Assembly: GCA_035717485.1 (NCBI GenBank)
Contig: DASTIQ010000150.1
Span: 1-41,403 of the forward strand
Length of the DNA: 41,403 bases
DNA from: Thermoanaerobaculia bacterium
GTDB lineage: Bacteria > Acidobacteriota > Thermoanaerobaculia > UBA5066 > DATFVB01
Direction of reading: 5' to 3'
Made by a program: the position numbers and the translations under genes. Shown here one piece after another: positions 29 to 9,880 of the stretch (positions are counted from its first letter, which is position 1; each line of letters starts with the position of its first letter). The notes below the pieces were generated by a model. The model ran no database searches, was not told the DNA's origin, and saw nothing but the letters and a program-made list of their open reading frames with translations.

Positions 29-1210
29 CTACGATCTGTAGTCCGCGTTGAGGGAAACGTAGTCGTGCCCCAGGTCGCTGGCCAGCACGGTCGCCGACGC
101 CTTTCCCGCCCCGAGGTCGGCGAGGACCGGCACCCGTTCCCTCGCGAAGACCCGGGCGGCATCCCGTTCCCGGTAGGAAGCCGCGGCGCCTTCCACGACG
201 AGGCGAACCGGCCCGGCGGAGAGCTCCACTCGGCCCGTCGAGACCCGGGCGCCGCTCCGGCCGATCGCCGCGAGGATGCGCCCCCAGTTCGGGTCGCCGC
301 CGTGGAGCGCGGTCTTCACGAGGGGCGACGTCGCGATCGCGTTGGCCGCGAGCTTCGCCTCTTTCGCCGTCGCGGCGCCGCGAACCGTGATCTCCATCAC
401 GCGCGTCGCCCCCTCGCCGTCCCGCACGATCCGCCACGCGAGCTCCCCGCAGACGGTCGCGAGCGCCCGGCGGAAGTCGTCGCCGTCTTCGCCTGCGAGC
501 GGCTCGTTCCCGAGGCGCCCGGAGGCCATGAGGAGAACGCTGTCGTTGGTGGACGTGTCGCCGTCCACGGAAATCGCGTTGAACGTCGAATCGACCGCTT
601 CCCGGAGCGCCCGGCGCAGGTATTCCGGCGTGGCCGCGACGTCCGTCATCACGAACCCGAGCATGGTCGCGAGGTTCGGATGGATCATCCCCGCGCCCTT
701 CGCGAAGCCGACGATGCGGCCGCGCCGGGGCCCCAGCCGGAACGTCGCCGACGCGACCTTCGGTCCGGTGTCGGTCGTCAGGATCGCGAGCGAGGCGGCG
801 TCGATGCCTCCGGAAGAGAGCCGGGCCACCGCGTCCGGCAGCGCCGCCCGGATCTTCTCGTCCGGGAGGAGGACGCCGATCACGCCGGTGGAGGCGAGAA
901 AGACTTCGGAAGGCGGACAGCCGAGGAGGGCGGCCGTCCGCTGGCGGACTCGCGCCGCGGCCCGGGTTCCTTCCGCTCCCGTGATCGCGTTCGCGCAGCC
1001 GGAGTTGACGACGACCGCGCGGACGCGGCCGCCACTCCGGCGGAGCGCCGTCCGCGAGAGCTCGACGGGCGCGGCCGAGAAGCGGTTCTTCGTGAAGACG
1101 GCCGCCGCCGCCGACGCGCCCCCCTCGGAGACGATGAGCGCCAGGTCGGGACGCTTCTTCCGGATGCCGCTCCGGACTCCGCTCGCGAGGAACCCCTTCG
1201 GCAGCCTCAT
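29..1210 (-). CDS. argJ: Glutamate N-acetyltransferase / amino-acid acetyltransferase ArgJ
   Basis: This 393-aa protein transfers the acetyl group from N-acetylornithine to glutamate, recycling acetyl in cytoplasmic arginine synthesis; many members also use acetyl-CoA to make N-acetylglutamate. The family signature KGAGMIHPNLATMLGF is present, with the expected self-cleavage site Ala181-Thr182, where Thr182 becomes the nucleophile of the beta chain. Further family blocks are VNSGCANA (about 69-75) and DGDTSTND. The length is normal. Its ATG overlaps the argH stop by 4 nt (ATGA), so it is the last gene of the arg operon. No argA or argE is in the window, so whether it is mono- or bifunctional cannot be told from sequence alone. 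A hairpin-element end follows its stop codon. Confidence 0.96.
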   Translation of the reverse strand: MRLPKGFLASGVRSGIRKKRPDLALIVSEGGASAAAAVFTKNRFSAAPVELSRTALRRSGGRVRAVVVNSGCANAITGAEGTRAAARVRQRTAALLGCPPSEVFLASTGVIGVLLPDEKIRAALPDAVARLSSGGIDAASLAILTTDTGPKVASATFRLGPRRGRIVGFAKGAGMIHPNLATMLGFVMTDVAATPEYLRRALREAVDSTFNAISVDGDTSTNDSVLLMASGRLGNEPLAGEDGDDFRRALATVCGELAWRIVRDGEGATRVMEITVRGAATAKEAKLAANAIATSPLVKTALHGGDPNWGRILAAIGRSGARVSTGRVELSAGPVRLVVEGAAASYRERDAARVFARERVPVLADLGAGKASATVLASDLGHDYVSLNADYRS

Positions 1211-2631
1211 CGTCCCTCCTCCTTCCCGATCCTCCGCCGGGCCGCGCGCGCGGCCTGCCGCACCCGCGCCGGGGACGCGCCTCCCAGGACGCGGCGCTTC
1301 GCGAGCGACCGATCCAGGTCGAGAGCCGCGAGATCACGCGGCAGGATGCCGGGAGAAGGCGGGATCTCCGCCAGCCCGCGTCCGGACGCCAGTGCCTCCG
1401 CGACGTGGCGGCCGACCCGCGCGTGCGCTTCCCGGAACGGCACGCCCCGCGCCGCGAGGGCGTCGGCGAGCTCGGCCGCGAGAATGGCTCCCCCTTCCGC
1501 GGCCGCCCGCATCCTCGGCCGGTCGAGCGCGAGCCCGCCGACGAGCGCGGCGAGCGCGGGGAGAGCGGCGCCGAGCACCGCGCGCATCCGGAAGAGCGGC
1601 TCCTTGTCGAGCTGGAGGTCCTTGTCGTACGCGAGCGGAAGGCCCTTGAGAACCGCCAGGAACCCGGCGAGCTCGCCGACCGCGCGCCCCGCGTGGCCCC
1701 GCACGAGCTCGAGGACGTCGGGATTCTTCTTGTGCGGGAGCCTCGACGACCCGGTCGCGAGCGCGTCGGGCAGCTCGACGAATCCGGCCTCGTCGGAGGA
1801 GAAGAAGATCAGATCCTCGGCCAGCCGGGAGAGGTGCGAGAGGAGCAGCGCTCCCGCATAGAGATAATCCGCCGCTCCGTCCCGGTCGGAAACCGCGTCG
1901 AGCGAGTTCGCCGTCGGCCGCGCGAATTCGAGCTCCCGCGCGAGCGTCGCCCGGTCCACGGCGACCGGCGACCCCGAGAGCGCCCCGGATCCGAGGGGGC
2001 ATTCGTCGGCGCGCGCCGCCGCCTCCCGAAGACGAGAGGCGTCCCGGAGCAGCATCTCGACGTACGCCAGGCACCAGTGGCCGAACGTCACCGGTTCCGC
2101 GCGCTTCGCGTGCGTATATCCGGGCATCGCCGTCGCCGCCTCCTCCTCGCCGCGGCGCGCGAGGACGGCGGCGATCGAGAGAACGTGCGCGCGCGCCTCG
2201 CGGAACGCCTCGCGCAGCCAGAGCCGCAGGTCGGTCGCGACCTGGTCGTTGCGCGAACGGCCCGTGTGGAGCTTGCCGGCCGCCTTCCCCGACGTCTTCG
2301 CGATCGACGCCTCGACGAAGGCGTGCACGTCCTCGTGGTCCGCGGGCGCCGCCGGGGCGCCGGCGCGCGCCACCCGCTCGAGCGCGCGGGCGAGGCGCGT
2401 CTGTTCGGCCCGGGTGATCGCGCCCGCTCTCCGGAGCGCCCCGGCCCATGCGATCGAGCCCCGCACGTCGTGCGCGAGGAGCTCGCGGTCGAAGGCGAAC
2501 GAGTCGTTGAAGCGGCGGAGCTCCTCCGACGGGCGATCGGCGAAGCGGCCACCCCAGAGGTCCCGTCGCTCCGCGCTTGCTCGGGGGACGGGAGATCGCG
2601 GCGCCTTTCGTCCGCGACGGTCTTTCGCCAT
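1207..2631 (-). CDS. argH: Argininosuccinate lyase ArgH
   Basis: This 474-aa enzyme of the fumarase/aspartase superfamily splits argininosuccinate into arginine and fumarate, the last step of arginine synthesis. Visible motifs are HTGRSRNDQ (about 122-130), GYTH with a conserved His (171-174), and the superfamily signature GSSRLPHKKNPD (294-305). The signature departs slightly from the usual GSSxMPQKKNPD. The chosen ATG at 2631 gives TGATG with the argG stop, a one-base overlap typical of coupled translation. The same frame stays open far upstream under argG, but that is GC-rich read-through and not part of the protein. The first 20 or so residues are basic and not conserved, so a slightly later start cannot be excluded. 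Confidence 0.96.
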   Translation of the reverse strand: MAKDRRGRKAPRSPVPRASAERRDLWGGRFADRPSEELRRFNDSFAFDRELLAHDVRGSIAWAGALRRAGAITRAEQTRLARALERVARAGAPAAPADHEDVHAFVEASIAKTSGKAAGKLHTGRSRNDQVATDLRLWLREAFREARAHVLSIAAVLARRGEEEAATAMPGYTHAKRAEPVTFGHWCLAYVEMLLRDASRLREAAARADECPLGSGALSGSPVAVDRATLARELEFARPTANSLDAVSDRDGAADYLYAGALLLSHLSRLAEDLIFFSSDEAGFVELPDALATGSSRLPHKKNPDVLELVRGHAGRAVGELAGFLAVLKGLPLAYDKDLQLDKEPLFRMRAVLGAALPALAALVGGLALDRPRMRAAAEGGAILAAELADALAARGVPFREAHARVGRHVAEALASGRGLAEIPPSPGILPRDLAALDLDRSLAKRRVLGGASPARVRQAARAARRRIGKEEGR

Positions 2632-3869
2632 CAGCGTTCTCCGCCGGCGCGCCGGGGCTCCGGGACCTCGATCGGCGCGAGTCGCCGCCGGCCGCGCGTC
2701 GGGAGCCCGAAGAGCCGGATGAATCCCGCGGCGTCGGCGGGGGTGTAGCCCGCCATGTCGAACGACGCCAGAGCCGGGTTGTAGAGCGAAGAGGCCGACG
2801 CCCGGCTCACGACCGACGCCGATCCCTTGAAGAGCTTCACCACGACGCGGCCGTTGACGTTGGCGGCGAGTGACTCGAAGAACGCGTCGAGCGACTCCCG
2901 CAGGGGCGAGAACCACTGGCCGTAATACACGATTTCCGCGTAGCGCATCGCGAGCCGGTCCTTCTCGTGCGCGGAGTCGCGGTCGAGCGTGATCGACTCC
3001 AGCGCCCGGAGCGCCGCGACGAGGATCGTCCCGCCCGGCGTCTCGTAGACGCCGCGGGACTTGATGCCCACGAGCCGGTTCTCGACGAGGTCGACGCGTC
3101 CGACGCCGTGCCGCCCCCCGACCGCGTTCAGCCGCTCGATCAGCGCGGCCGGAGACAGGGCCTCGCCGTCGACCGCCACCGGAAATCCCTCTTCGAACGC
3201 GATCTCGACCCGCTCGGGAACTCCGGGAGCGTCCTCCGGCGCGACCGTCAGACGGTAGATCCCGGGCTCCGGCTCCCACGACGGATCCTCCAGGCGGCCC
3301 CCTTCGTGGGAGATGTGCCAGAGGTTCCGGTCGCGGGAATACGGGTCCTTCCGGGTGACGGGGACGGGGATCCCGCGCGACGCCGCGAACTCGATGGCGT
3401 CCTCGCGCGATCCGATCGACCACTCTCGCCAGGGTGCGATCACCGAGAGCTCGGGAGCGAGCGCCTGGTAGGCGAGCTCGAAGCGGACCTGGTCGTTCCC
3501 CTTGCCGGTGCACCCGTGAGCGAGCGCGTCGCACCCGGTCTCGAGCGCGGCCTCGACCTGCTTCAACGCGATGAGCGGGCGGGCCGCCGCGGTCCCGAGG
3601 AGGTATTCGCGCTCGTAGATCGCGCCCGACCGGAGGAGCGGAAAGAGATACTCGCGGGCGAACTCCTCCCGCGCGTCGACGAGCCGGAAGTCCGCGGCCC
3701 CCGTGCGCCGCGCCTTCTCGGCGAGGCCGCGGGTCTCCTCCTGCTGGCCGACGTCGACGGCGACCGCGACGACCTCGCAGCCGTAGTTCTCCTTGAGCCA
3801 GGGAATGATGATCGAGGTGTCGAGCCCTCCCGAATAGGCGAGCGCGGCGCGGCGAACGGACGTCTTCAT
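2631..3869 (-). CDS. argG: Argininosuccinate synthase ArgG
   Basis: This 412-aa ATP-dependent ligase joins citrulline and aspartate to argininosuccinate in the cytoplasm. The N-terminal PP-loop ATP site is clear (AYSGGLDTS, 11-19). The citrulline/aspartate-binding block HGCTGKGNDQVRFE lies near 118-131, and family blocks such as DPYSRDRNLWHISHEGG and GIKSRGVYETPGG follow. Length is normal for the family. The ATG at 3869 overlaps the argD stop by 4 nt (ATGA), and the stop overlaps the argH start. Citrulline must come from an ornithine carbamoyltransferase (argF), which is not in this window. Confidence 0.97.
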   Translation of the reverse strand: MKTSVRRAALAYSGGLDTSIIIPWLKENYGCEVVAVAVDVGQQEETRGLAEKARRTGAADFRLVDAREEFAREYLFPLLRSGAIYEREYLLGTAAARPLIALKQVEAALETGCDALAHGCTGKGNDQVRFELAYQALAPELSVIAPWREWSIGSREDAIEFAASRGIPVPVTRKDPYSRDRNLWHISHEGGRLEDPSWEPEPGIYRLTVAPEDAPGVPERVEIAFEEGFPVAVDGEALSPAALIERLNAVGGRHGVGRVDLVENRLVGIKSRGVYETPGGTILVAALRALESITLDRDSAHEKDRLAMRYAEIVYYGQWFSPLRESLDAFFESLAANVNGRVVVKLFKGSASVVSRASASSLYNPALASFDMAGYTPADAAGFIRLFGLPTRGRRRLAPIEVPEPRRAGGER

Positions 3870-5155
3870 GCGGGAACCTCCTCGAGAAGGGTTTCGTCGA
3901 GCGCCCGCACGAAGGCGGCGAGCGCCGTTCTGGGAACGACGTACGGCGGCAGGAGCCGGAGCACGCGCTCGCGCGCGGTTCCGACCACGAAGCCGCGATC
4001 GAGCAAACGGCGGGCGACCGGTCCCGAAGGGCGGTCGAGCTCGATTCCCCACATCAAGCCCGCTCCGCGCACCTCGCGGACGGACCGGTTCCGGCGCGCG
4101 AGCCGCGACAGCGCCGCTCCGAGGAAGCGGCCGAGGCCGCGGATGCGGGCGAGCAGTTCCCGCTCCTCGATCTCGTCGAGGAACGCGAGCCCCAGCCGGC
4201 AGGCGAGCGGGTTTCCGCCGAACGTCGTTCCGTGATGCCCCGGCCGCACGGCGCCCGCGAGCCTCTCGCCGACGACGACCGCGCCCAGCGGGAGCCCGCC
4301 GCCGAGCGCCTTCGCGAGGGTGACGGCATCCGGCAGCACGCCGGCCCGCTCGAACGCGAAGAGCGTCCCCGTCCGTCCGAGCCCGCACTGGATTTCGTCG
4401 AAGATCAGCACGGCGCCGGTCCGGTCGGCGGCCTCCCGGGCCGAGCGCAGGAACGCGTCGGTGAGGGGGACGATCCCCGCCTCGCCCATGACCGGCTCGA
4501 GGAGGATCGCCGATGTTTCTTCCGAAACGGCGCGCCGCAGCGCCTCCGGATCGTTCGGTGGAACGAATCGGGCCCCCGGCACGAGGGGAACGAACGGCCG
4601 CCGGTAATCCTCGTGACCGGTCACGGAGAGCGCGCCGAAGGTTCGCCCGTGGAAGCTTTCCTCGACGGCGACGACCCCGGCGCGGCCGGGGTTGGCGAGG
4701 CGGGCGAGCTTCAGCGCGGCTTCGATGGCTTCGGTGCCGCTGTTGCAGAAGAACGCCTTCGAGAGGCCCGACGCGCGCACGAGACGCTCGGCGAGCAACC
4801 CCTGCGCCGGGTGGTAGTAGAGATTCGAGAGATGCCAGACGCCGCGCGAGCCTTCCGCGAGAGCGCGGACGAGCCTCGGATGGCGCGAGCCCAGAGCGTT
4901 GACCGCGATCCCGGCCAGGAGATCCCAGTATTCCTTTCCGGCGGCGTCGACGAGCCGGGCGCCCCGCCCCGACCGCGGATGAAACGGAGTACGAGCGTAC
5001 GTTCCCAGCACGAACCCGCGATCGCGGGCCTCGACCTCGGCGGGCGCTTCCGCGGAGTCCGACGCGGCCGCGGCGGCGTCAGGCGGCTCCGGCTGCACGG
5101 CGTCAGGCCGCGACAAGAGAAGTCCCTCCCGTCCGTCCGTCGAGGACGTCGGCAT
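3866..5155 (-). CDS. argD: Acetylornithine aminotransferase ArgD (class III PLP)
   Basis: This PLP enzyme, 429 aa as drawn, converts N-acetylglutamate semialdehyde to N-acetylornithine. Conserved features are NSGTEAIEAALKLAR (about 138-152), ESFHGRT (166-172), the PLP-binding acidic block FDEIQCGLGRTG (252-263) and the Schiff-base lysine in TLAKALGGGLPLG (Lys282). The stop overlaps the argG start (ATGA). The start is uncertain: ATG at 5155 overlaps argB by 53 nt and gives a low-complexity Ala/Asp/Glu-rich leader of about 45 residues before the conserved region. A TTG at 5116, preceded by GGGAGG on the minus strand, or a GTG at 5098 would remove most of the overlap. Some members also act on succinyl-DAP. 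Confidence 0.94.
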   Translation of the reverse strand: MPTSSTDGREGLLLSRPDAVQPEPPDAAAAASDSAEAPAEVEARDRGFVLGTYARTPFHPRSGRGARLVDAAGKEYWDLLAGIAVNALGSRHPRLVRALAEGSRGVWHLSNLYYHPAQGLLAERLVRASGLSKAFFCNSGTEAIEAALKLARLANPGRAGVVAVEESFHGRTFGALSVTGHEDYRRPFVPLVPGARFVPPNDPEALRRAVSEETSAILLEPVMGEAGIVPLTDAFLRSAREAADRTGAVLIFDEIQCGLGRTGTLFAFERAGVLPDAVTLAKALGGGLPLGAVVVGERLAGAVRPGHHGTTFGGNPLACRLGLAFLDEIEERELLARIRGLGRFLGAALSRLARRNRSVREVRGAGLMWGIELDRPSGPVARRLLDRGFVVGTARERVLRLLPPYVVPRTALAAFVRALDETLLEEVPA

Positions 5156-5894
5156 GCCGGTCCGGACCGGCGATCACGATCTCTTCGACTCCCTGGGCGA
5201 TCGCGTCGAGCGCGGCCGCGAGCTTCGGCCTCATCCCCCCCGAGGCGGCTCCGGAGACCAGCAGCTGCTGCGCGGCGGCCGCCGTGAGACGCGGCAGCGT
5301 CCGCCCGGATCCGTCGCGCACTCCTTCGACGTCCGTGAAGAAGATGAGACGCGCCGAGCCCAGAGCCGCCGCAACGGCGGCCGCAGCCGTGTCGGCGTTC
5401 AGGTTCAGGATCCCTCCTTCGCGGCCGGCGGCCAGCGGAGCGAGGACCGGCAGGAGTCCCGCATCCAGCAGCGCCCGGAGCGCGCCCGGCCACGCCCGCG
5501 GCGCGGTTCCGACGAGGCCCAGCTCGACGCCGTCGACCGGCGGATGGAGCTCCGCCACGAGCGTTCCCCCATCCACGCCGGAAAGACCCGCGGCCGCGAT
5601 GCCGAGCGAGCGGAGCTCGTCGACGAGACCCTTGTTGACGATTCCGGCGAGGACGGCGACGACCGCCTCCAGCGTGGCGGGACCGGTGACCCGCAGGCCG
5701 CGATGGACGCTCCGCGTCAGTCCCAGGGCCGAAAGGTGCTCGTCGATCTTCTTTCCCCCGCCGTGCACGACGACGACGGGTGTCCCCGCTTCCCACGCGC
5801 GCGCGACCGCGCCGATCGCTCGGCGGCGAAGGGCCGCGTTCTCGAGCAGGCTGCCACCGAGCTTGACGACCCACGGACGTTCCCCGACGTTCAT
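5103..5894 (-). CDS. argB: Acetylglutamate kinase ArgB
   Basis: This 263-aa kinase of the amino-acid kinase family phosphorylates N-acetylglutamate, the second step of arginine synthesis and often the site of arginine feedback. The phosphate-binding lysine lies in VVKLGGSLL (about 9-17), the glycine-rich VVHGGGKKI at 42-50, and the substrate-binding NLNADTAA at about 164-171, with FTDVEGV near 186-192. The length is close to the arginine-insensitive type. I did not see the long N-terminal helix of arginine-sensitive hexameric forms, which would need an alignment to confirm. ATG at 5894 overlaps the argC stop by 4 nt. Confidence 0.96.
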   Translation of the reverse strand: MNVGERPWVVKLGGSLLENAALRRRAIGAVARAWEAGTPVVVVHGGGKKIDEHLSALGLTRSVHRGLRVTGPATLEAVVAVLAGIVNKGLVDELRSLGIAAAGLSGVDGGTLVAELHPPVDGVELGLVGTAPRAWPGALRALLDAGLLPVLAPLAAGREGGILNLNADTAAAAVAAALGSARLIFFTDVEGVRDGSGRTLPRLTAAAAQQLLVSGAASGGMRPKLAAALDAIAQGVEEIVIAGPDRHADVLDGRTGGTSLVAA

Positions 5895-6925
5895 GCCAGT
5901 CCCTCCTCTTCGGGAAATCCCGCCATCCGGTTGAAGTTCTGAACCGCCTGCGACGCGGCGCCCTTCAGCAGGTTGTCGAGAACGCTGACCACGACGCCGC
6001 GCCGGCCCCCCGCGAAGACGGCGAAGCCGATCTCGGCGCGGGGCGTTCCGACGACCGCCTTCAGCTCCGGAAGCTCCCCCGCCGGCAGGACCCGCACGAA
6101 GCGGCTGCGGGCGTACGCGGCGCCGAAAGCGGCGGCGAGCTCCTCGGCCGACGTCTCCCCGGCAAAGCCCAGGTGGAGCGTCGAGAGGATTCCGCGGGGG
6201 ACCGGGAGCAGGTGCGGAACGAAACAGAGATCGACCGGCTCGGTGCCGAGGTGCCTCCGGATTTCCGGTTCGTGGCGGTGCGTTCCCGCGGCGTAGGCCT
6301 TCGCGTTTCCGAAGAGCTCCGTGAACGACCAGGCGAAGTCGGCCTTCTTGCCGGCCCCCGAAACGCCGCTCTTGCTGTCGCAGACGACGGGCTGGGCGCG
6401 GTCGAGAAAGCGGAGAACCGGTTTGAGAGCGAGAAGAGCGGACGTCGCATAGCACCCGGGGTTCGCGACGAGCCGGGCCGTCTCGAGCTCGCCATCGCAC
6501 CATTCCGTCAGGCCGTAGACCGCACCCGGCAGCAGGCCGGGGACCGGGTGCGCGAAACCGTACCAGCGGGGGTACTCGGCGGCCGGGAGACGAAAGGCGC
6601 CCGACAGATCCACCACCCGGACGCCCGGCAGACGGTCGAGGATCTCCGGAACGACTTCCGCGGAAATTTCGTGGGGCGTGGCGAGAAACACGAAGTCGGG
6701 TTCGCCCGCGAGGAGCGCGTCGACCGTGAACGGCGCCGCGTCCGGCCCCGGCGCGCCCGCGAGCGCCGGATGGAGGCCTCCGAACGGCACGGCGCCGCCG
6801 CCGGCGCCCGAGAAGATGCCGCCCCACCGGACGCCCCGATGGCGGGCGAGAATCGCCGCGAGCTCCCCCCCGGCGTAGCCGGTCGCCCCGACGATCGATA
6901 CACGTTTGCCCTGCAGCTCTTTCAA
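5891..6925 (-). CDS. argC: N-acetyl-gamma-glutamyl-phosphate reductase ArgC
   Basis: This 344-aa NADPH-dependent dehydrogenase reduces acetylglutamyl-phosphate to the semialdehyde, the third step of arginine synthesis. The N-terminal Rossmann motif is VSIVGATGYAGGEL (9-22). The catalytic cysteine is Cys158 in VANPGCYAT, and the family blocks SKSGVSGAGKK and HRHEPEI are present. Length fits the long (type 1) ArgC family. It begins 27 nt after the argR stop, with no hairpin or promoter-like sequence seen between them, so argR and argC are probably cotranscribed. Its stop overlaps the argB start (ATGA). Confidence 0.97.
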   Translation of the reverse strand: MKELQGKRVSIVGATGYAGGELAAILARHRGVRWGGIFSGAGGGAVPFGGLHPALAGAPGPDAAPFTVDALLAGEPDFVFLATPHEISAEVVPEILDRLPGVRVVDLSGAFRLPAAEYPRWYGFAHPVPGLLPGAVYGLTEWCDGELETARLVANPGCYATSALLALKPVLRFLDRAQPVVCDSKSGVSGAGKKADFAWSFTELFGNAKAYAAGTHRHEPEIRRHLGTEPVDLCFVPHLLPVPRGILSTLHLGFAGETSAEELAAAFGAAYARSRFVRVLPAGELPELKAVVGTPRAEIGFAVFAGGRRGVVVSVLDNLLKGAASQAVQNFNRMAGFPEEEGLA

Positions 6926-6952: not shown

Positions 6953-7483
6953 TCAGGAACGCTTCGATCGGCGCGGCTGCGCCGACCGGATTCGAGGCTT
7001 GGCGTCGGTCGAGATCAGGGACCGCAGACGATGGGTGAGGCGGGCCGCGGCAGCCGCCGAGCGGGTTGCCAGGAAAATCGTGTCGTCGCCCGAGACCGTC
7101 CCGACCACCTCGGGCAGAGCCGCCTCGTCGAGGGCGCGGGCCACCGGCGACGCGTCCGCCGGCGGCGTCCGGAGAACGACGAGCGACGAGGCCGTCTCGA
7201 CCCGGAGGACGAACTCGCGGACGACGCGGCTGAGCTTCTCCTCCCGTCTTTCCGGGCGCGCCGGCTCCTCCGCCGCGGACGGCGAGGACGCCTCGGCCCG
7301 CGCGGCGGCGACCGGGAGCACGTAGCCGGCTGGGCCCTTGGCGACCCCGAGCTCGCGAAGATCGCGGGAGACGGTCGGCTGGGCCGCCGGATATCCGCGG
7401 TGGCGGAGGAGGCGCTGCAGCTCGTCCTGGGAGCGGATCGTCGCTTCCCGGATGATCCGGAGCATCTCGTCGCGGCGGCGCAT
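6953..7483 (-). CDS. argR: Arginine repressor ArgR
   Basis: This 176-aa repressor of arginine biosynthesis is the first gene of the operon. The N-terminal winged-helix DNA-binding domain includes the family blocks TIRSQDELQRLL and AAQPTVSRDLRELG. The C-terminal domain, which trimerises and binds arginine, has SLVVLRTPPADASPVARALDEA and the conserved GTVSGDDTIFL. An Ala/Glu-rich linker joins them, and a basic tail of about 20 residues (ending RRSKRS) is longer than usual. I chose ATG 7483 rather than the in-frame GTG at 7516. The GTG would put the promoter -10 and both ARG boxes at or inside the start. Autoregulation is inferred from those sites. Confidence 0.93.
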   Translation of the reverse strand: MRRRDEMLRIIREATIRSQDELQRLLRHRGYPAAQPTVSRDLRELGVAKGPAGYVLPVAAARAEASSPSAAEEPARPERREEKLSRVVREFVLRVETASSLVVLRTPPADASPVARALDEAALPEVVGTVSGDDTIFLATRSAAAAARLTHRLRSLISTDAKPRIRSAQPRRSKRS

Positions 7484-7496
7484 CGTGGCGCCGATC

Positions 7497-7528
7497 GAAT
7501 AAGTATTCACCAACACGAATTTTTATTG
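7497..7528 (-). promoter_or_regulatory. Tandem ARG boxes (ArgR operator)
   Basis: Two palindromic sites match the core of the known ARG box (TGAAT-wwww-ATTCA). Site 1 at 7497-7508 is GAATAAGTATTC with intact GAAT/ATTC arms. Site 2 at 7517-7528 is GAATTTTTATTG with one arm base changed. Their centres are 20 bp apart, close to the 21-bp spacing of paired ARG boxes in enterobacteria. They cover the -10 region and start of the predicted arg promoter, so bound ArgR would block transcription. This is a pattern match to an established operator, with the function inferred. Confidence 0.8.
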
Positions 7529-7547
7529 ATCACATCCCCGGTGTCAA
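7520..7547 (-). promoter_or_regulatory. Predicted sigma-70 promoter of the arg operon
   Basis: On the minus strand a perfect -35 hexamer TTGACA (7542-7547) is followed by a 16-bp spacer and TAAAAA (7520-7525) as the -10. Transcription would begin near 7512, leaving a leader of about 30 nt before the argR ATG. This is one of the few AT-rich patches in the region. The divergent kinase gene starts at 7601, and I see no equally clear promoter for it. Confidence 0.7.
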
Positions 7548-7600: not shown

Positions 7601-9880
7601 GTGGCGCTCGCCCCGGGAACCCGGTTCGGCCCCTACGAGGTCTCGGCTCTCCTCGGAGCCGGGGGGATGGGCGAGGTCTATCGGGCGCGCGACGTGCGCC
7701 TCGGGCGCGAGATCGCCCTGAAGATCCTCCCCGCGGCGTTCGCCGAGCAGCCGGAGCGGATGCGGCGCTTCGAGGAAGAGGCCCGGATGGCCTCCCGCCT
7801 GAATCACCCGAACATCGTCACGATCCACGACATCGGAAACGAGGGGGGAATCGCGTTCATCGCGATGGAGCTCGTCGAGGGAGAGTCGATCCGCGAACGG
7901 ATCTCGCGCGGTGCCTTCCCCCCCGCGGAGTCCGCCGCGATCGCCGCGCAGATCGCCGCCGGCCTCGCCCGGGCCCACGCCGCCGGGATCGTCCATCGGG
8001 ACCTGAAGCCCGAGAACGTCATGATCGCTCCCGGCGGGCTCGTCAAGATCCTCGATTTCGGGCTCGCCCGCATCGAAGCCGAACGCGTGACCTCGACGCC
8101 CTCTTCCGCGCCGACGCGCACGTCTCCCACCGGCGCCGGCGCGATTCTCGGGACCGTCGGCTACATGTCGCCGGAGCAGGCTCGGGGCGCTCCGACGGAT
8201 GCGCGGACCGACCTCTTCGCGTTCGGCGCCCTGCTTTACGAGATGCTCGCGGGCCGCCCGGCGTTTCCCGGAGGCACGGTCGCCGCTCTCTCGGCGATCC
8301 TCGCGCCCGGCCCCCCGGACCTGTCCGGGATTCCCGACGGCACGCCTCCCGGGCTCGCCCGGATCGTCCGCCGCTGCCTCGAGAAGGACCCCGAGCGCCG
8401 CCTCTCCTCCGCCCACGATCTCTCCCTTCAGCTTCGCGACCTCGCCGTGCCCGCCGCTCCCACTCTGCGGACGCGTTCCTCGGCGTCGCGAGTCCGGCGG
8501 AAGGCGATCGACTCGGTCGCCGTCCTCCCCCTGATCAACGTGGGGGGCGACCCCGCACACGAATACCTGACCGACGGCGTCACCGAATCGATCATCCACG
8601 GCCTGTCGGAGCTCCCGAAGCTCCAGGTGATGGCGCTCTCGACGGTCTCCCGCTTCCGCGGGCGCGACCCGCTCGAGGCGGGACGGGCGCTGGGGGTCCG
8701 CGCGGTGCTCACGGGCAAGCTCACCGGAACCGCCGAAAGGCTGCGCGTGCAGGCGGAGCTCGTCGACGCGCAGACCGGATTCCGGATCTGGGGCGAAGCG
8801 TACGACCGGCCGATGGCGGACCTGCTGGAGGTCCAGGACGAGATCGCGCGGGAGATCTGCGATCACCTTCGCTTCAAGCTCTCCGGCGCGGAGCGGCGGC
8901 GCGTCGCGAAGGCCCCGACGCGCAACGCGCAGGCGTACCAGGCGTACCTGAAGGGCCGCTACTTCTGGAACAAGTGGACGACCGAGGGTGTCAAGAGCGC
9001 GATCGAGCTGTACGAGCGCGCGATCGAGATCGATCCCGCGTACGCGCTCGCCTGGGGCGGGATGGCCGACGCCTACGGGATCATGGGCAGCATGAAGATC
9101 ACGGCCCCGGATCAGGCGTTTCCGAAAGCAAGGGCCGCCGCCCTCCGGGCCCTCGAGATCGACCCGCGGCTCGCCGACGCCCACGCGTCGCTCGCCTACG
9201 TCCACTGGCTGCACGACTGGGACTGGCCGGCCGCCGAGGCTTCGTTCCGGGAATCCCTGCGGCTGAACCCCAGCTACGCGACCGGACATCGCTGGTACGG
9301 GCAGTTCCTGTCGGGATTGGGCCGCGGCGAGGAGGCGCTGGAGGAGGTCCGCCGGGCGCTCGATCTCGATCCCCTCTCGCTCATCATCCACACGGCGGTC
9401 GGGGACGCCCTGTTCTACGCCCGGCGTTACCGGGAGTCGATCGAGTTCTACCGGAAGTCGCTCGAGATGGACCCCGATTTCCAGGCCGGCCACAGCGACC
9501 TCGCGCGGGCGCTCGAGTTCTCGGGAGAGATCGACGAGGCGATCCGCGAATACGAGGCCGCGATCCGGCTGTCGGGAGCCACCGCGGCCGACGCGTCCGT
9601 CGGGCGGGCCAACGCGCTCGCCGTCGCCGGCAACCGGGAGGAGGCGCTCGCCATCCTCGACCAGCTTCAACGGCGGAGAGCGGAGCGGTTCACGTCGCCG
9701 TGGGGAATCGCCTCGATCTACGCGAGGCTCGGAGAGCCCGAGGAGGCCCTCTCCTGGCTCGAGCTCGCCTACGCCGAGCACGACCCGCCGCTGGTCTGGC
9801 TGAAGGTCCACCCGCGGTTCGACGCCCTGCGTTCCCACCCCCGGTTCCTCGCGATTCTCCGGCGGATGAACCTCGAGTGA
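7601..9880 (+). CDS. Ser/Thr protein kinase with TolB-like and TPR regions
   Basis: This cytoplasmic Hanks-type kinase is 759 aa. The kinase domain (about 10-280) has the glycine loop GAGGMGEVY (19-27), the ATP-binding Lys41 in ALKIL, HRDLKPEN with catalytic Asp134, DFG (152-154) and GTVGYMSPEQARG. After a short basic linker without a membrane segment comes a TolB/FlgO-like region (about 305-425; begins SVAVLPLINVGG). A TPR array runs to the C-terminus, with repeated units such as AIELYERAIEIDPAYALAWGG. This architecture is common in Acidobacteriota and suggests protein-protein signalling, but the substrates are unknown. The start is GTG, chosen because the typical opening LAPGTRFGPYEV follows directly; the frame is open upstream. 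The gene is divergent from the arg operon and overlaps the next gene. Confidence 0.9.
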   Translation: MALAPGTRFGPYEVSALLGAGGMGEVYRARDVRLGREIALKILPAAFAEQPERMRRFEEEARMASRLNHPNIVTIHDIGNEGGIAFIAMELVEGESIRERISRGAFPPAESAAIAAQIAAGLARAHAAGIVHRDLKPENVMIAPGGLVKILDFGLARIEAERVTSTPSSAPTRTSPTGAGAILGTVGYMSPEQARGAPTDARTDLFAFGALLYEMLAGRPAFPGGTVAALSAILAPGPPDLSGIPDGTPPGLARIVRRCLEKDPERRLSSAHDLSLQLRDLAVPAAPTLRTRSSASRVRRKAIDSVAVLPLINVGGDPAHEYLTDGVTESIIHGLSELPKLQVMALSTVSRFRGRDPLEAGRALGVRAVLTGKLTGTAERLRVQAELVDAQTGFRIWGEAYDRPMADLLEVQDEIAREICDHLRFKLSGAERRRVAKAPTRNAQAYQAYLKGRYFWNKWTTEGVKSAIELYERAIEIDPAYALAWGGMADAYGIMGSMKITAPDQAFPKARAAALRALEIDPRLADAHASLAYVHWLHDWDWPAAEASFRESLRLNPSYATGHRWYGQFLSGLGRGEEALEEVRRALDLDPLSLIIHTAVGDALFYARRYRESIEFYRKSLEMDPDFQAGHSDLARALEFSGEIDEAIREYEAAIRLSGATAADASVGRANALAVAGNREEALAILDQLQRRRAERFTSPWGIASIYARLGEPEEALSWLELAYAEHDPPLVWLKVHPRFDALRSHPRFLAILRRMNLE

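Follow-up and report, generated by a model that had tools for sequence, protein, structure and literature searches.

A predicted leaderless argR start codon embedded in the ARG-box operator of an arginine biosynthetic operon from a Thermoanaerobaculia bacterium

The window, by which we mean the whole 41,403-nt stretch of DNA that was analysed, is an entire contig (C150), one of the 339 that make up a 3.8-Mb genome, and it carries an arginine biosynthetic operon on its minus strand (Table 1). Profile searches bear out the proposal, made in an earlier sequence-only reading, that argR stands at the head of argCBDGHJ: argR itself and argC, B, D, G, H and J were all recovered, although many relatives of argD align only from about residue 36. 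The gap between argR and argC is 27 nt and, from argC onward, the called genes overlap their neighbours by 1 to 53 nt, which argues for one predicted transcript. When scanned from ATG 7483, the repressor exceeds the thresholds of both PF01316 (50.1 bits; cut-off 27) and PF02863 (71.7 bits; cut-off 25), but it falls below that of the TIGR01529 equivalog (111.7 versus 130.45 bits). Since all five of the NCBIfam models that it matches are arginine repressors, we read it as a divergent ArgR rather than as a member of another family. In alignments with solved repressors among its PDB relatives, GTVSGDDTIF is matched to GTIAGDDTIL and GTICGDDTIL, such that the GDDT motif, through which the C-terminal domain of ArgR binds arginine, is present.

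Table 1. Predicted features of the argR-led operon and its operator–promoter region (window coordinates)
Feature	Position	Strand	Basis or remark
-35 hexamer TTGACA	7542..7547	minus	sequence and promoter scanner
-10 region, TAAAAA after N16 or AAAAAT after N17	7519..7525	minus	inside upstream ARG box
ARG box 1 (upstream), TCAATAAAAATTCG	7516..7529	minus	8/10 core bases
Predicted transcription start, 7511 +/- 2	7509..7513	minus	promoter geometry only
ARG box 2 (downstream), TGAATACTTATTCG	7496..7509	minus	9/10 core bases; first argR codons in preferred reading
argR, from predicted start GTG 7510, 185 aa	6953..7510	minus	Pfam profiles; HTH and C-terminal domains
argC, TTG start as listed	5891..6925	minus	TIGR01850, 339 bits
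argB, GAGGAGG upstream	5103..5894	minus	TIGR00761, 195 bits
argD, start uncertain	3866..5155	minus	TIGR00707, 418 bits
argG, GAGGAGG upstream	2631..3869	minus	NF001770, 565 bits
argH	1207..2631	minus	TIGR00838, 470 bits
argJ, bifunctional type by model name	29..1210	minus	NF003802, 468 bits

A divergent gene (7601-9880, plus strand) encodes a Ser/Thr kinase with TPR repeats. A shared operator role for this gene was considered and rejected: across 40 loci searched, the kinase adjoins argR only in the sister genome (L049), and the other kinase matches (L084 and L055) lie far from argR.

The TTGACA element, the -10 element and the two ARG boxes upstream of argR that the sequence-only reading described are confirmed, with one adjustment: the promoter scanner chooses AAAAAT with a 17-nt spacer (7524-7519) over TAAAAA with a 16-nt spacer (7525-7520). 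This promoter gives 10/12 matches, and it is the 1 site found, compared with a mean of 0.0 in shuffles. Across the class operon loci described below, the -35 hexamer matches at 5 or 6 of its 6 bases in 29 of 31, whereas the -10 matches are poor because this element is tied to the ARG box. A transcription start near 7512 had been suggested previously and agrees with our own placement, both being promoter-based estimates. The two palindromes lie over the promoter with a centre-to-centre spacing of 20 bp; in Escherichia coli, tandem ARG boxes are spaced by ~20-21 bp centre to centre. The expectation that the ARG-box core is shared with other bacteria also holds, as the core TGAAT-N4-ATTCA matches the consensus forms of other bacteria that appear in PMC4865122.

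The promoter and its two ARG boxes are real and lie far above chance. Taken singly, ARG boxes are unremarkable here, with six matches at ≤2 mismatches in the window against 3.61 expected, as would be the case if the boxes were simply chance AT-rich promoter sequence and not an ArgR operator. The pair, on the other hand, is kept together with its spacing and position in all 31 of the loci compared, and elsewhere in the phylum, too, box pairs are encountered next to argR, argC, argF or argG. A search of the whole 3.8-Mb genome found the pair pattern at three places with ≤3 mismatches, that in the window being the sole one at ≤1 and the two others having three mismatches each; the reversed-pattern control gave 0 matches in the same genome. 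Moreover, an operator model built from 29 other operon loci, with the genus of the window left out, scores 47.5 bits at the window site (and 30.1 bits at the same place on the opposite strand), compared with -1.1 bits at the second-ranking separate site of the window and a maximum of 3.5 bits in 1 Mb of order-1 random sequence. A chance origin for the boxes is, thus, scarcely credible.

The comparison was drawn from the class. Of 148 class genomes searched, 87 contain an ArgR match and 61 do not; among the 108 more complete genomes, the number without a match is 41, such that loss or replacement of argR may be frequent. In 31 loci, the window genome (G000) included, argC lies within about 300 bp after argR, and all 31 of these related, and hence not independent, loci have the ARG-box pair with 20-bp spacing. 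L189 and L193, in which argC is >1 kb downstream of argR, were not counted among them and have no good pair (11 and 13 of 20), and elsewhere in the class no pair exceeds 13/20 in L176-L211, or 11/20 in L254 and L255. Nine more class loci were covered by a single-box scan, which found a few weak boxes (7-8/10) in G029 and G050; the box analysis excluded G011 and G032, as well as the second argR of G048. Most genomes of the large genus g17 (family f8) were left out of the fetched argR regions; in those that were read, argR follows argH or has no argC nearby. A relatives search over 60 genomes matches the pair pattern in 30, that of the window among them, with 0 for the control, and 24 of these 30 carry the operon, whereas six do not (G020, G039, G041, G053, G057 and G059). 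Four f7 genomes (G022, G031, G040 and G046) have a second box-pair match away from argR, that of G031 being at L103 (G031:C8:90183-90214).

The recurrence of the 20-bp box pair in 31/31 class loci means that autorepression by ArgR is well supported by comparison, and it would be ordinary; indeed, argR of E. coli is autorepressed. The sequence-only reading went further, holding that ArgR represses both its own gene and the whole pathway from one operator. The first part of this stands, by comparison, for argR and its operon, but 'whole pathway' is an overstatement because argF sits in an arcA-arcC-argF cluster lacking ARG boxes (G000:C243, L086 1089-4266). This cluster encodes the single ornithine carbamoyltransferase over the model cut-off, its arcA being below the model cut-off, and a scan of 9.7 kb here found no ARG box of ≥8/10. 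The boxes that the sequence-only reading proposed to look for before argF elsewhere in the genome were searched for and not found at this cluster, and the presence of ARG boxes before every arg transcription unit breaks down at argF. The argF search of the relatives matched 60/60 genomes, and across 30 argF loci (one from the window genome and 29 from relatives), the best box pair reaches 14/20. Given its position in a deiminase-type cluster, the sole ornithine carbamoyltransferase over the cut-off may serve both catabolism and biosynthesis.

The position of the argR start codon is where we depart from the sequence-only reading, which had chosen ATG 7483 over GTG 7516. The rejection of GTG 7516 is upheld, as this codon is not conserved, but the choice of ATG 7483 is contradicted by the comparison, which points instead to GTG 7510 inside box 2. 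In 27 of the 31 loci, the triplet at position -1 of box 2 is either ATG (14 loci) or GTG (13 loci), is in frame and is open into argR; in the window, the triplet that overlaps the first two bases of box 2 (A/G followed by TG) is GTG 7510. In G010 and G014, argR starts one codon earlier, with GTG, and the starts in G028 and G031 are at +9 and +29, respectively, both without a clear TTGACA. A start-like triplet at box 2 is unsurprising on its own because the ARG-box consensus tends to A/G-TGAAT. Nevertheless, in 20 of the 27 loci the stretch from box 2 to the conserved Arg-rich N-terminus is free of further ATG, GTG or TTG codons, and the distance from box 2 to the Arg-rich motif varies by whole codons (index 8, 9, 10 or 11) in 26 of the 27, the motif not being recognized in G055. 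By a stricter count, which takes in the next 24 codons including the HTH, just 7 of the 27 loci are without another in-frame start. Overall, the conservation of the box-2 start, the scarcity of alternatives and the nearly constant distance from the -35 hexamer indicate that argR probably starts at GTG 7510 and not at ATG 7483; if true, this corrects a start that might be assigned to the downstream ATG in annotation.

Two other placements of the start have to be weighed. Were the operator the same but argR translated from ATG 7483, there would be an untranslated leader of ~28 nt holding ARG box 2. Judged by its domains, a protein begun at 7483 would be a complete ArgR, in G046 the equivalent ATG has a fair Shine-Dalgarno-like pairing (-6.6 kcal/mol), and many loci outside the class start argR downstream of box 2. 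Against this, a codon like ATG 7483 is seen in only 7 of the 27 loci (G000, G001, G004, G022, G046, G062 and G065), the other 20 offering none before the HTH domain, the pairing at this position in the window is just -1.7 kcal/mol, and the segment between the two starts shows coding-type substitution in close groups; we consider a start at ATG 7483 unlikely. Less likely still, and in our view improbable, is a start a few nucleotides upstream, at TTG 7513 or GTG 7516, which would place box 2 fully inside the coding sequence. Both codons are in frame in the window, and in-frame starts at -4 or -7 are present in 12 of the 27 loci; however, the -1 start is present in 27 of the 31 loci, whereas those at -4 and -7 occur in eight and seven of these 27, respectively, and in the window the two upstream codons lie at or before the predicted transcription start.

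With argR starting at GTG 7510, its message is predicted to be leaderless because the start is 36-39 nt from the -35 hexamer and has no clear Shine-Dalgarno sequence. The former distance, counted from the first base of the hexamer, applies to 29 of the 31 loci and is 37 nt in the window. Anti-Shine-Dalgarno pairing before the box-2 start has a median of +0.4 kcal/mol across the 31 loci, with a lowest value of -3.3 kcal/mol and +0.6 kcal/mol in the window, such that these starts are without the Shine-Dalgarno sequence that leaderless mRNAs lack; argB and argG of the window, unlike argR, carry the Shine-Dalgarno-like GAGGAGG. Pairing before the downstream position is stronger, with a median of -1.7 kcal/mol, and drops below -5 kcal/mol in 6 of the 31 loci. 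Of these six, G046 alone has an ATG at this position, which favours the downstream start in that genome, and is a possible exception to the box-2 leaderless start, whereas the other five have no ATG, GTG or TTG there. As reported in PMC3160421, leaderless genes are predicted in 207 of 953 bacterial genomes, Acidobacteria and many other groups among them, and have -10-like signals ~12 bp ahead of the start codon.

The first bases of argR also bear marks of a dual role. After the box, substitutions at codon positions 1, 2 and 3 number 57, 54 and 122 among 10 genomes of one family, and 6, 0 and 11 among four genomes of one genus, although the third-position excess is weak over 19 genomes (400, 398 and 482); among the 10 family members, 118 codon differences change the amino acid and 46 are silent. 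Within the box, codon 2 of argR is AAT in 26 of the 27 loci, whereas the six enzyme genes of the window use AAC 37 times and AAT twice. Codon 4 ends in T in 27/27 loci; in the rest of argR in the same 27 genomes, by comparison, AAC, CAC and TAC together occur 98 times, against 45 for AAT, CAT and TAT. These frozen wobble bases inside the box indicate an operator laid over codons, and the predicted N-terminus in relatives is usually M-N-x-[H/Y]-[S/A]. ARG boxes within coding regions are reported for Streptomyces in PMC5839063.

Our favoured model, which we regard as likely, is of an ArgR-led, autoregulated operon in which argR starts at GTG 7510 within box 2 and is translated from a leaderless message. 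In the presence of arginine, ArgR bound at both ARG boxes would cover the transcription start as well as the -10 element, silencing argR and argCBDGHJ together. Transcription would be initiated on GTG 7510 or no more than about 2 nt from it, and, with this codon overlapping the first bases of box 2, the box would also encode the N-terminus of the repressor; a single segment is, thus, predicted to act as operator, transcription start and first codons. The output of repressor could be low relative to that of the enzymes, since argB and argG have Shine-Dalgarno-like sites: if so, placing a gene without a leader ahead of enzyme genes that have Shine-Dalgarno sites, within one message, would be a simple way to keep the repressor low.

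Much of this arrangement has precedents. A two-domain ArgR acting at two boxes over a promoter is common to the ArgR/AhrC systems of E. coli, Bacillus subtilis and Streptomyces and to the present case; here, however, argR leads the biosynthetic operon, a single operator pair was found in the genome, and the start codon appears to overlap the downstream box in a message that is predicted to be leaderless. At E. coli argC, the ArgR sites lie in the promoter and 5' UTR, and a leader is present, whereas here a box is placed at the predicted coding start. The closest parallels for the message are in phage: cI of lambda is named as leaderless (PMC3160421), and cI and cro of PY54 are leaderless repressor genes by RACE (PMC4488713). 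In these, the message begins at a start codon near to operators, as is predicted here, but they are phage switches, whereas here the operon is biosynthetic and the operator itself would contain the start codon. We found no report of an operator-embedded leaderless argR start in the open-licence literature, as searched by title and start of abstract, and argR is not called leaderless in the portions of the Klebsiella and E. coli literature that were available. Both an ArgR operator and a leaderless autorepressor are, therefore, of known kinds, and it is their combination that is new. The operator-embedded leaderless start appears to be the part of real interest, as a modest, though conserved, departure from a familiar switch: if correct, the same bases form the operator and the first codons of a repressor in a chromosomal, conserved setting, and the evolution of operator and protein is, as a consequence, inseparable.

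Whether the arrangement extends beyond the class is less clear. A scan of the phylum with a pair pattern carrying A/G-TG matched 68 of 396 genomes, many of the examined matches not being near arg genes, and the reversed control matched at least three genomes. Among 111 argR loci from outside the class, a non-random set comprising 100 chosen for spread among the matches listed and 11 picked for their boxes, pairs reach ≥16/20 (relaxed core) in 57. As assigned by script, the argR start in these 57 is in frame at -1 in three and at +9, in the second half-site, in 16, some of which have alternatives; a further eight have an out-of-frame mini-ORF touching argR, the remaining 30 are of other types, and inspection by eye added a few more box-2 starts. 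That argR translation tends to start at the downstream ARG box throughout the phylum, from leaderless messages, is, thus, a tentative generalization that we doubt somewhat more than we believe; if true, changes that tune the operator would also alter the N-terminus of the repressor. In an outgroup of 36 loci (mostly Proteobacteria and some Clostridia, at ≤44% identity), just two pairs of ≥15 were found before argR, neither of which has the argR start at -1.

In the eight mini-ORF loci (L238, L241, L242, L394, L403, L407, L412 and L447), the ATG or GTG of box 2 opens an out-of-frame stretch of 6-33 codons, the end of which overlaps an argR start by 4 nt. Coupling through such mini-ORFs was examined and set aside, with 9 of 36 loci showing it compared with 7 and 5 of 36 for the other two frames, and hence no clear excess. 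When the count is confined to the 18 loci with ATG or GTG at -1, the overlap is seen in eight, versus one and one, although this split was made after the fact and family f24 contributes six of the eight; mini-ORF coupling is, therefore, a weak lead.

Within the window genome, there are suggestive signs of a wider leaderless usage. The pattern TTGAC-N17/18-TANNNT, outside which the window's own promoter falls, occurs at 40 sites, compared with 10 for the reversed control. At 6 of 30 such promoter loci (31 sites), an ORF of ≥70 codons starts 7-9 nt past the -10 element; these strong promoters with a long ORF close behind are at L294, L297, L305, L309, L313 and L318.
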